This document shows, piece after piece, positions 20,371 to 43,343 of a stretch of DNA of 43,606 nt. The stretch lies in contig JACZYA010000009.1 of the NCBI GenBank assembly GCA_022571295.1, forward strand, positions 1 to 43,606. Direction: 5' to 3'. This stretch comes from Acidobacteriota bacterium. Lineage in GTDB: Bacteria > Acidobacteriota > Terriglobia > Acidiferrales > 2-02-FULL-67-57. The notes below the pieces were generated by a model. It saw nothing but the letters and a program-made list of their open reading frames with translations, was not told the origin of the DNA and did not search any database. Made by a program: the position numbers and the translations under genes. How positions within the stretch are numbered: the first letter of the stretch is position 1; each line of letters opens with the position of its first letter.

Positions 20371-20449
<79 letters not shown>

Positions 20450-39898: not shown

Positions 39899-40483
39899 AT
39901 GCGCCGCGCAGGAAAAGAAACCGAGATCAAGCTCGCGGTTGCGAGCGTACGATCCATGCGTCACTGGCTGCGGGCGCTCGGTTTTCGCCCGCTCGGTCCG
40001 CGACAGCGAGAACGCAACACGATCTGGGACACGCCCAAGCGTCTGCTCAAAAAGCGCGGGTGCTTGTTACGCCTCCGCACGGTGGGCAAGCGGGGCTGGA
40101 TCACTTTCAAGGGGCCGCGGCAGAGGCAGCAGGGCTTCAAAGTCCGCACGGAGTGGGAAGCTGAAGTGGCCCCGGCAGCGAGCGCGGAGAAAATCCTGCA
40201 AGCGCTGGGCTACCAGCCGGTGTTCCGCTACGAGAAGTTCCGGACTACCTATACCCAGCGGGGCCGGCGGGGTGGGGAAGCGTTGCTGGACGAAACACCC
40301 ATCGGAACCTATCTGGAGCTGGAGGGCGCGCAGGCGTGGATTGGGCGCGTAGCTCGGCAGCTCGGCTATGCGCCCAAGGATTTTATTACCAAGACCTACG
40401 CCGAGCTTTACCTAGCCTGGTGCCGGCGCAGGCAGCAGCCGCCGGGCGACATGGTCTTCCGGCGGGGACGAACTTCGCTTTGA
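39899..40483 (+). CDS. CYTH-domain protein (triphosphate-tunnel metalloenzyme)
   Basis: Probable member of the CYTH/TTM superfamily, whose members hydrolyse inorganic or organic triphosphates or act as class IV adenylate cyclases. The 194 residues begin with the signature ETEIKL (residues 7-12), followed by basic strands expected to line the tunnel: LLRLRTVGKRGWITFKGP near 54, FKVRTEWEAEV and VFRYEKFRTTYTQ near 108. The later LDETPIGTYLELEG near 138 supplies the acidic metal ligands and TKTYAELYL closes the domain. A basic C-terminal tail follows. A CHAD domain is absent. Substrate unknown. Confidence 0.85.
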   Translation: MRRAGKETEIKLAVASVRSMRHWLRALGFRPLGPRQRERNTIWDTPKRLLKKRGCLLRLRTVGKRGWITFKGPRQRQQGFKVRTEWEAEVAPAASAEKILQALGYQPVFRYEKFRTTYTQRGRRGGEALLDETPIGTYLELEGAQAWIGRVARQLGYAPKDFITKTYAELYLAWCRRRQQPPGDMVFRRGRTSL

Positions 40484-40514
40484 TAAGAGAATAAAGTGCG
40501 CTCGTATCTGGTAC

Positions 40515-40766
40515 ACTGCACCGGAAGCCGCCGGGATGTTGCTCGTGGCAAGCGAGCGCTTCCGGCAAGCAGTGCGACCGCCCACGATGACAGATGAAGG
40601 TAGAAGGGCGAACAGGGTAGAGGAGACGCGGGGTTTGCCTAGTGAAGACGTCCCGGACCCGGAGCGAGGTTGGCTGATGCCGACTCTCCTCTAGGGAGAC
40701 CCCAGGGTCTGGAACCATCGCCTGCGAGCCCCCCGTGGCCGGCGGCTGCGCCCCACGGGTTTTTTT
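40515..40766 (+). ncRNA. Structured leader RNA ahead of the MgtE-like/NRAMP genes
   Basis: A 314-bp gap filled by consecutive stems. P1: ACTGC/GCAGT (40515-40519, 40569-40573), continuing CCGGAAGC/GCTTCCGG (40521-40528, 40558-40565) and GCTCG/CGAGC (40541-40545, 40553-40557). P2: CGCCC/GGGCG (40579-40583, 40606-40610). P3: TAGAGGAGA/TCTCCTCTA (40618-40626, 40685-40693) enclosing GTTGGC-TGAT-GCCGAC (40669-40684). GGGGTTT (40630-40636) inside P3 can pair with AGACCCC (40697-40703) just outside it, a pseudoknot. It ends in a terminator 32 bp before the gene. This is the form of a riboswitch or attenuator, or a separate small RNA. It does not obviously match M-box or yybP-ykoY consensus sequences. 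Confidence 0.55.
40732..40766 (+). terminator. Intrinsic terminator upstream of the MgtE-like gene
   Basis: CCCGTGG (40732-40738) pairs with CCACGGG (40753-40759), with an inner GGC/GCC helix, followed by seven T (40760-40766). It lies inside the presumed 5' leader, so it may act as a conditional terminator. Confidence 0.85.
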
Positions 40767-40797
40767 GTGCCCGGCGGAGGGTGGACGAAGTGCCGAC

Positions 40798-42042
40798 ATG
40801 ATTCACGCCACTGAGTTGCTGAACGCAAGCGTGTACGACGCTCAGGGGAACTACCTGGGACGCGTGCGGGAACTCTGCCTGGTGCCCGCCGAGCAGCCCA
40901 ACCGCATCGCCCGAGTGGTGATTGCGCGCGGAAAATACCAGCCGCTGGTGGCGCGCTTCGACCAAGTGGCCAGTGTCGCGCCCGGCAGCATGCACCTGAA
41001 CACCGGCGAGCTGCAACTGGAACCCTACGTCCCGGATGAAAGCTGGTTGACGGTGCGCAAGGACCTGCTGGACCAGCAGATTATTGACATCCACGGGCGC
41101 AAGGTGGTGCGGGTGAACGACATTACCCTGGTGGAACAGCCGGCGAACAACTACACCGAGTTGCGGGTGACGCAGGTGGACGTGGGGTTGGCGGGTGCGA
41201 TGCGGCGGCTGCTGAAAGGCGTGCTGCCGCTGGCATGGATGCGGGCGCTTGAAAAACGCCTGCCCACGCGCAACATTCCCTGGGAGTTCGTGGACGTAAT
41301 CGAAACCGATCCAATGCGGCGGGTGAAGCTGAAGTTGCCGCACTCGAAACTGGCGGAACTCCACCCGGCTGACATCGCCGACATCATCGAAGAGCTGGCC
41401 CCGGCGGAGCGCGATGCGGTGATCGAAACCCTGGACGATTCCACCGCTGCCGAAGCACTGGAAGAAGTGAAAGATTCGGTGCAGGTGAAAATTGTAAAGG
41501 AGTTGGACAAGGAGCGCGCGGCCGACATCCTGGAGCAGATGGCACCGGATGAAGCCGCCGACGTGCTGGCCGACCTGCCGGCCGATACCGCCGCCCAGGT
41601 CTTGCAGGACATGGACGGCAAGGAAGCGCAGGAGTTGGTCGAGCTGATGCAGTTCGAAGAAGACACGGCCGGAGGTCTGATGACGCCGGAGGTATTCGCC
41701 ACCGCGGAGAGCAATACCGTGGGGCAAGCCATCACCGCGCTGCGGCACAGCGAGGTTCCGATTGAATCGCTGGACACGGTGTACCTGACCGGTGCCGACA
41801 ACGCTTTGACCGGGGCGGTGCCGCTGGGCCATATGCTGCTGGCGGGGAACGAAACCCGGTTGCAGAATTTGCGTAACGAGCAGCTCATCTTCGTAGAAAC
41901 CGGCGCGCAGGAAAAGGAAGTGGTGGAGCTGTTCGACAAGTACAACTTGCGCTCGCTACCGGTGGTGGACGTCGAACAGAAGCTGGTGGGGATGATTACC
42001 GTCGATGACATTGTGAGCCGGATATGGCAACCACGAAAGTAA
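40798..42042 (+). CDS. Soluble MgtE-N/CBS protein with PRC-barrel-like domains, no channel
   Basis: Cytosolic protein of 414 residues resembling the Mg2+-sensing half of MgtE. Residues 1-75 and about 76-130 look like PRC-barrel domains (NASVYDAQGNYLGRVRELCL; QIIDIHGRKVVRVNDITLVE). Residues 185-290 form an MgtE-N-type helical superhelix (LHPADIADIIEELAPAERDAV, ERAADILEQMAPDEAADVLADL), and 295-414 a CBS pair (GGLMTPEVFAT; LRSLPVVDVEQKLVGMITVDDI). There is no membrane segment. It overlaps the NRAMP gene by 19 bp, implying a joint complex in which it senses Mg2+ or nucleotide and gates transport. ATG 40798 is used; an upstream in-frame start would lie in the terminator. Confidence 0.88.
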   Translation: MIHATELLNASVYDAQGNYLGRVRELCLVPAEQPNRIARVVIARGKYQPLVARFDQVASVAPGSMHLNTGELQLEPYVPDESWLTVRKDLLDQQIIDIHGRKVVRVNDITLVEQPANNYTELRVTQVDVGLAGAMRRLLKGVLPLAWMRALEKRLPTRNIPWEFVDVIETDPMRRVKLKLPHSKLAELHPADIADIIEELAPAERDAVIETLDDSTAAEALEEVKDSVQVKIVKELDKERAADILEQMAPDEAADVLADLPADTAAQVLQDMDGKEAQELVELMQFEEDTAGGLMTPEVFATAESNTVGQAITALRHSEVPIESLDTVYLTGADNALTGAVPLGHMLLAGNETRLQNLRNEQLIFVETGAQEKEVVELFDKYNLRSLPVVDVEQKLVGMITVDDIVSRIWQPRK

Positions 42043-43343
42043 GAGCTTGGTTGCGGCCCGTCCTCCGCCAGCGCAGGCGGCTGCGGCTGTGGCGGAAGCA
42101 ACTGGTGATTTTCTTTGCGGTGGTGGGCCCCGGCCTGATTACCTCCAACGTGGACAACGACGCCGGGGGAATCTACACCTACTCGCTGGCGGGCGCGCAG
42201 TTCGGCTATCTGCTGCTGTGGACGCTGATTCCGATGACCGTCATCTTGTTTGTGACCCAGGAGATGGCGGCGCGCTTGGGCGTGATGACCGGCAAAGGGT
42301 TGTCGGATCTGATCCGGGAGGAATTCGGCTTTCGCACCACGGTCTTCCTGATGCTGGGAGTGTTGGCGGTGGCGCTGGGGAACATCCTGGCCGAATTCGC
42401 CGGAGTGGCGGCCAGCTTGGAACTGTTTGGCGTCAGCCGCTACCTCTCGGTACCGGCGGCTGCCTTGCTGGTGTGGCTGCTGGTGGTCAAAGGCACCTAC
42501 AAAGGCGTGGAAAAGGTTTTTCTGGCGATTTGCGTTTTCTACCTGGCCTACGTGTTTTCAGCCTTCATGGCCAAGCCGGATTGGACGGCGGCCGCCTACC
42601 AAACCATCCGGCCGACGGTGGTATGGAGCTCCAGCTACCTGCTGTTGCTGCTGGCGATGATCGGCTCGACCATCGCACCCTGGCAGCACTTCTATTTGCA
42701 GTCAGCGGTGGTGGAAAAAGGCATACCGCGGGAACGCTATTGGGAAACGCGCATAGATGTGCTGGTGGGGAGCATCAGTTGCATGGTGATTGTATTCTTC
42801 ATCATTGTTTGCTGCGCCGCCACCCTGCACGCCACCGGACAGACGCAGATTCGCGACGCCGCTGAGGCGGCCGAGGCCCTGCGTCCCCTGGCGGGGCCGT
42901 ACGCGTCGGCGCTGTTCGCGTTCGGGTTGCTGAACGCTTCGCTGTTTGCCGCTTCCATCGTGCCGCTCTCGACTGCGTATGTGATTTGCGAAGGTCTGGG
43001 CGTGGAAGCGGGCGTGGACAAACGTTTCCGCGAAGCGCCTATCTTTTACTGGCTTTACACCGCGCTGATTCTGGTGGGAGCGGGCTTGATCCTGCTGCCC
43101 AATACACCGCTGGTGCGGATCATGGTGCTCTCGCAGGCGGTTAATGCGTTTCTGTTGCCGGTGGTGCTGGTGTTCATTCTGCTGCTGGTGAACCGGAGCG
43201 ACTTGGTCGGCAAGTGGCGGAACTCGCCGGCTTGGAACGGCGTCGCCTGGGCCACCGTCATTGGCGTGAGCTTGCTGACTCTTTTGCTTGTTTACCTGGG
43301 CGTCACCGGCACGCCGGTAAGCTTGAACCCTGCCTCGCCGTAG
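42024..43343 (+). CDS. NRAMP-related divalent metal transporter, divergent motifs
   Basis: Inner-membrane transporter of 439 residues and about 11 helices with the LeuT-like fold of NRAMP proteins. Helix 1 reads GPGLITSNVDNDAGGI (residues 35-50), so the classical DPGN metal motif is replaced by DNDAGG. Helix 6 reads GSTIAPWQHFYLQS, where the metal-selective methionine of MPH is alanine. Loss of that methionine is also a feature of NRAMP-related Mg2+ transporters, so Mg2+ or Mn2+ is more likely than Fe2+; this is inference. It overlaps the MgtE-like sensor gene and ends 22 bp before a palindrome cluster. Confidence 0.87.
   Translation: MATTKVRAWLRPVLRQRRRLRLWRKQLVIFFAVVGPGLITSNVDNDAGGIYTYSLAGAQFGYLLLWTLIPMTVILFVTQEMAARLGVMTGKGLSDLIREEFGFRTTVFLMLGVLAVALGNILAEFAGVAASLELFGVSRYLSVPAAALLVWLLVVKGTYKGVEKVFLAICVFYLAYVFSAFMAKPDWTAAAYQTIRPTVVWSSSYLLLLLAMIGSTIAPWQHFYLQSAVVEKGIPRERYWETRIDVLVGSISCMVIVFFIIVCCAATLHATGQTQIRDAAEAAEALRPLAGPYASALFAFGLLNASLFAASIVPLSTAYVICEGLGVEAGVDKRFREAPIFYWLYTALILVGAGLILLPNTPLVRIMVLSQAVNAFLLPVVLVFILLLVNRSDLVGKWRNSPAWNGVAWATVIGVSLLTLLLVYLGVTGTPVSLNPASP

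Follow-up and report, generated by a model that had tools for sequence, protein, structure and literature searches.

The window, as we call the whole analysed stretch of 43,606 nt from a soil bacterium of the Ca. Acidiferrales (Acidobacteriota), carries a CYTH-domain gene (39899–40483, forward strand; Pfam CYTH, E = 8e-16), followed on the same strand by a gene for a protein with PRC-barrel, MgtE_N and CBS domains (40798–42042; Pfam E values of 3.2e-6, 1.5e-26 and 2.8e-11, respectively) and by an overlapping gene for an NRMT-type Nramp transporter (42024–43343). The CYTH gene forms the conserved 5′ boundary of a leader region, and the latter two genes form the putative regulated operon. The interval 40515–42042 singled out in an earlier note on this DNA comprises the leader plus the MgtE_N/CBS gene. 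A tRNA gene at 20371–20444 is the sole Rfam match in the window.

The closest PDB match of the transporter is 7QIA, the Mg2+ transporter EleNRMT of Eggerthella lenta (E = 7e-106), whereas its matches to Mn2+/Fe2+ MntH proteins are much weaker (E = 2e-28). It contains the motifs NDAGG and APW. The APW motif is aligned in the window protein and EleNRMT and stands where classical Nramps carry a metal-binding methionine, here replaced by alanine, which is an NRMT feature (PMC8806188). Being closest to EleNRMT and having alanine in place of methionine, the transporter belongs, as judged from its sequence, to the NRMT clade of Nramp-related Mg2+ transporters. NrmT of A. capsulatum, an acidobacterial relative, fully rescued a Mn2+ defect and weakly a Mg2+ defect (PMC4072509).

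A predicted promoter opens the leader (40480–40510, forward strand), with a −35 element TTGATA at 40480–40485, a −10 element TATCTG at 40505–40510 and a predicted RNA start at about 40515–40518. It has a long spacer of 19 nt and escaped a consensus scan, and its placement is that of the conserved TTGACA..TATCTA/TTTACTAG promoter of the relatives. At the other end lies the intrinsic terminator noticed earlier upstream of the MgtE_N/CBS gene. It is real: it spans 40732–40766 on the forward strand (stem 40732–40738/40753–40759, T-run 40760–40766), has a predicted energy of −20.5 kcal/mol (z −1.9), was missed by a simple scan and places its T-run 38 nt before the start of the next gene.

Taken as a whole, the leader is somewhat more stably folded than shuffled sequences (z −2.81). 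Of the structures described in the earlier note, the terminator and a long hairpin stand, whereas the 5′ stem (40515–40573) is at chance level (z 0.11). The folding model places the long hairpin at 40630–40703 on the forward strand (z −2.78; 3 of 200 shuffles as good), where it encloses a short reading frame discussed below. The GGGGTTT/AGACCCC helix (40630–40636/40697–40703), previously read as a possible pseudoknot, is a real pairing but forms the outer part of this ordinary nested hairpin, with a pair probability of 0.94–0.97 before the terminator is included. It had also been suggested to switch the terminator. In the energy model, however, helix and terminator coexist (0.99 and 1.0 with the 5′ stem left out), and we therefore rejected the helix as the antiterminator of the window. 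An alternative hairpin, AGACCC/GGGTCT, directly follows the stop codon of the reading frame (40697–40710, forward strand); by sequence it is mutually exclusive with the 40630–40703 helix, and in the model it is mostly unpopulated (0–0.03), except when portions of the upstream arm have been masked. No clear antiterminator is evident in the window, where the model still forms the terminator in all masked states.

A covariance search of the window leader returned no Rfam family at gathering scores, in agreement with the earlier impression that it is neither an M-box nor a yybP-ykoY element; relaxed thresholds gave only chance-level matches to snoRNAs and sRNAs (E 2–6). Neither the window leader nor 20 related loci matched any family, the mgtA leader RNA of enterobacteria included. 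With membership defined as a score of at least 44 bits against the RF00380 covariance model, the M-box was absent from the window leader, from the 20 related loci and from 61 of 61 Acidiferrales genomes, while controls and sister clades were positive. Since Rfam was silent and a reading frame explains the conservation, we dropped the idea of a housekeeping RNA, 6S-like or otherwise.

Searching the DNA of the relatives with the window leader recovered only the leader itself and a 32-nt chance match inside an unrelated coding region. Related genomes have the CYTH gene followed by the same leader slot, and 58 of 61 relatives have an orthologue of the MgtE_N/CBS gene. The related loci from named records are from Acidobacteria, many of them labelled Candidatus Acidiferrales; one Acidiferrales-type locus (L111) comes from a record titled Betaproteobacteria, which is probably a mislabelled bin. 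In nearly every related genome the end of the CYTH gene carries a conserved promoter, which is followed by an open reading frame (ORF) of 33–77 codons, a stop codon, an intrinsic terminator 100–400 nt beyond the promoter and then the operon. The stop codon lies about 55–60 nt before the terminator. The description of this region as a regulatory leader of no assigned class, whose conditional-looking terminator precedes a Mg2+-related operon, thus holds, and its position is conserved upstream of orthologues. The ORF, which overlaps the structures of the window, had been overlooked.

The T-run lies less than 50 nt before the start codon in 14 of 70 loci, with 38 nt in the window, leaving no room there for a second promoter, so that the operon must depend on read-through unless it is transcribed from further upstream. 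The nearest siblings of the window, L004 and L006, keep the promoter and the terminator stem in leaders of 62–65 nt and have lost the ORF. In L007 and L008, the promoter upstream of the MgtE_N gene adjoins the gene itself; there is no ORF and no terminator, and hence no attenuator. A short palindromic repeat, TTGACCGCTTCGCGGTCAC, occurs several times within and near the leader in the upstream regions of L025 and L027. In L011, the last 234 bases (minus strand) consist of tandem units of about 30 nt (GCTCAGTGCAAGCACGTTCGCC...) at the contig end, just before the gene.

We scored a leader ORF as present if, no more than 60 nt from the predicted transcription start, an ATG opened a frame of at least 30 codons whose stop lay 50–70 nt before the T-run. 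Such an ORF occurs in 62 of 69 leaders, which are not independent samples, against 2.07 expected after dinucleotide shuffling; none of the 200 shuffled sets had more than 6. Shine-Dalgarno pairing before the ORF is enriched (−5.2 versus −3.1 kcal/mol in shuffles). Among 21 ORFs of exactly 50 codons, substitutions are spread evenly over the three codon positions (1144/1051/1177), which argues that selection does not act on the peptide middle and that only the openness of the frame is kept. The products match no known family.

A short element near the N-terminus behaves differently from the peptide middle. The dipeptide [DE]P is found within the first 14 residues, mostly at residues 8–9, in 60 of the 69 ORFs (codon-shuffled mean 6.5, maximum 17), and in 23 of 28 non-redundant leaders (<72% identity); the other two frames yield counts of 3 and 4. 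At the DNA level it is encoded by 11 different codon pairs, with D/E exchanges among them, and examples of its surroundings are ELEPGP, DQEPLP and NSEPGS. Acidic residues make up 18% of the N-terminal 12 residues and 6.5% elsewhere, and basic residues are depleted near the dipeptide. The comparison shows that the acidic-Pro dipeptide is under selection. Nine of the 69 ORFs have no early [DE]P, among them three of the five ORFs from genus g10. The ORFs of that genus (L028, L033, L035, L041 and L042) are shorter, with 33–34 codons, and all end in PGI; they may respond to a different trigger.

The end of the ORF is predicted to interact with the terminator. In a swap test on the 28 non-redundant leaders, the last five codons plus the stop paired better with the 5′ arm of their own terminator than with the arms of others. 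With narrow windows, p was about 0.001–0.01 for most windows and 0.7–0.8 for upstream control windows; broad windows, including a run with all 69 leaders, gave no significant result. Complementarity to the terminator arm is highest in the segments just past the stop codon. In the relatives, the post-stop hairpin has a z score of −1.5 and the terminator one of −3.3. Antiterminator pairing between the last codons and the terminator arm is suggested, not proven, by these data. A swap test on the post-stop hairpin was discarded, as its two windows overlap. Pairing between the EP codons and the C-terminal codons was not retained as a general part of the mechanism: it is confined to genus g5, with no compensating changes.

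The window itself offers two forms of the ORF, which share a frame and the stop codon TAG (40692–40694). The ATG form (40536–40694, forward strand; 52 codons) starts 21 nt past the predicted transcription start, and its end lies 68 nt upstream of the T-run, as in the relatives, a placement with a chance probability of 0.015 in shuffles. It has a weak Shine-Dalgarno sequence (−3.5 kcal/mol) and no early EP motif. The TTG form (40635–40694, forward strand; 19 codons) encodes MPSEDVPDPERGWLMPTLL, the N-terminus of which is rich in acidic residues and proline; in the window, early acidic and proline residues are found only with this start. It is preceded by the Shine-Dalgarno sequence AGAGGAG (40619–40625, forward strand), 9 nt before TTG 40635, with a predicted anti-Shine-Dalgarno duplex of −9.1 kcal/mol. 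An ORF that ends at this place with at least four acidic residues and two prolines in codons 2–13 arose in 0.46% of shuffles, in a test devised after the peptide had been seen. Of the two forms, the TTG ORF is the better supported. The window copy is divergent and may be either a compact version or a decaying one; the case for the general mechanism is built on the relatives.

We consider it probable that the leader is a ribosome-controlled transcription attenuator of the Mg2+-transport operon. Comparison of the relatives shows that the predicted promoter, the ORF and the stop-to-terminator geometry are conserved and that the last codons are complementary to the arm of the terminator. In the proposed mechanism, the short ORF would be translated from the nascent leader. 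With enough Mg2+, efficient translation would bring the ribosome to the stop codon, 55–68 nt before the T-run, where it would cover the last codons and allow the intrinsic terminator to form, turning the operon off. At low Mg2+, the early acidic-Pro codons would slow ribosomes down or make them drop off; the freed last codons would then pair with the 5′ arm of the terminator around the post-stop hairpin, blocking termination, and the MgtE_N/CBS and NRMT genes would be made. Since a ribosome at the stop would cover the very segment that is complementary to the terminator arm, full translation would mean off and failed translation on. We infer that the signal is Mg2+ and that ribosomes fail at the acidic-Pro codons of the Acidiferrales leader ORFs. 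The divergent copy in the window presumably still works as an attenuator, most likely via its 19-codon TTG ORF.

The closest functional parallel is MgtL, a leader peptide encoded ahead of mgtA in E. coli and Salmonella. When Mg2+ is low, its acidic-Pro codons (EPDP) cause ribosomes to fail, and transcription of mgtA follows (PMC11282234); mgtL translation is inefficient under these conditions (PMC11552253). In a study of EttA, the acidic residues had to fall within the first 30 residues (PMC11282234), and MgtQ uses Asp2 and Glu5 (PMC8092293). Like MgtL, and like MgtP/MgtM of mgtCBR, MgtQ and CorL, most Acidiferrales leaders have a short ORF ahead of a Mg2+ transporter operon, with acidic and proline residues near the N-terminus. 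The expected logic, in which efficient translation leads to termination and failed translation to expression, is also that of MgtL (PMC11282234, PMC11552253, PMC8092293), and the non-AUG start of the TTG form has a counterpart in the UUG of corL. The leader sequence and the phylum, in contrast, are unrelated to those of MgtL. An intrinsic terminator is found here where MgtL relies on Rho, the ORF usually has 45–62 codons with its stop close to the terminator, and the operon encodes MgtE_N/CBS and NRMT proteins instead of the P-type ATPase of mgtA. A Mg2+ response is suggested here by analogy. As in his/trp-type attenuators, a leader ORF would be combined with mutually exclusive terminator and antiterminator pairings; unlike them, the ORF has an acidic-Pro motif instead of a run of a single regulatory amino acid, and metal transport would be regulated.

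A second parallel is found within the class. In sister Terriglobia, a true M-box (ykoK; RF00380, E 1e-28 to 1e-30) occupies the same slot before the same MgtE_N-NRMT operon, likewise followed by a terminator (L119:636-811, L121:2103-2278, L122:2118-2292, L126:2133-2309 and L132:1650-1826). The M-box was found in 30 of 200 genomes of class Terriglobia, all in two other families. Acidiferrales, by contrast, have an ORF instead of the aptamer, and no covariance match. There is precedent for a riboswitch-like element being swapped for a leader peptide at one gene (PMC2965389).

How far the window itself obeys this scheme is the subject of one alternative, in which the attenuator has decayed in the lineage of the window, leaving a constitutively leaky terminator and two chance ORFs. 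This would fit the siblings L004 and L006, with their terminator and no ORF, the window terminator that is unblocked in all modelled states, and the ATG form with its weak Shine-Dalgarno sequence and missing EP motif. We regard decay as somewhat unlikely, considering that the terminator stem is kept, that a 52-codon ORF sits at the usual place of the family (chance 0.015) and that the TTG form joins a very strong Shine-Dalgarno sequence to an acidic-Pro start (chance 0.0046). A ribosome-dependent attenuator of the same anatomy could also read another signal, be it translation speed, the supply of proline or charged tRNA, EF-P status or Mn2+. The geometry of ORF, stop and terminator is silent on the signal, proline codons alone can stall ribosomes (PMC6460261) and the acidobacterial NrmT looked Mn2+-preferring (PMC4072509). 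Against this, the conserved dipeptide is acidic as well as proline-containing, with basic residues depleted nearby as in MgtL, a Mg2+ riboswitch fills the same slot in sister clades and the transporter is of the NRMT clade; a different signal therefore appears unlikely.

The earlier note had suggested a new metal-sensing RNA, with the terminator as the expression platform of a riboswitch. The stable structure in the window and the riboswitch at this position in sister orders would be in line with such an element, but none of 35 predicted pairs was compensated in an alignment of 19 sequences, which gives no sign of a conserved, covarying aptamer core, the predicted RNA start lies anywhere between 62 and about 370 nt before the T-run with no conservation of the middle, and the ORF is open far beyond chance. 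We consider a metal-binding RNA very improbable. The stand-alone small RNA proposed as its alternative is not borne out either; what is conserved is a promoter, an acidic-Pro ORF and a terminator with a competing pairing near the stop. It is very unlikely, finally, that the ORF encodes a functional small protein that the terminator merely separates from the operon. The ORF does have a promoter, a Shine-Dalgarno sequence, its own terminator and clade-conserved ends, but codon-position bias and a family match are missing, the middle diverges, the length varies from 33 to 77 codons and in several genomes the interval past the terminator is too short to hold a promoter. On present evidence, the leader most likely works like MgtL without being its homologue, and involves no metal-binding RNA.

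The chances are about even that we are looking at a convergent Mg2+ sensor, in which a ribosome on an acidic-Pro leader peptide, combined with an intrinsic terminator, replaced the M-box across an acidobacterial order. The literature we found ties Mg2+ sensing by ribosome failure at acidic-Pro codons to leader peptides of E. coli and Salmonella. If our reading is true, sensing by MgtL-type ribosome destabilization occurs far outside enterobacteria, and an independent case in a distant phylum, at an operon where a riboswitch can take its place, would make the ribosome a general gauge of Mg2+. The Acidiferrales leaders represent dozens of natural variants for testing the acidic-Pro rule. Of the attenuators in Acidobacteria, almost none had a function (PMC2965389); these leaders suggest a possible one, and they also suggest what may regulate acidobacterial mgtE-nrmT operons lacking an M-box (PMC4072509).
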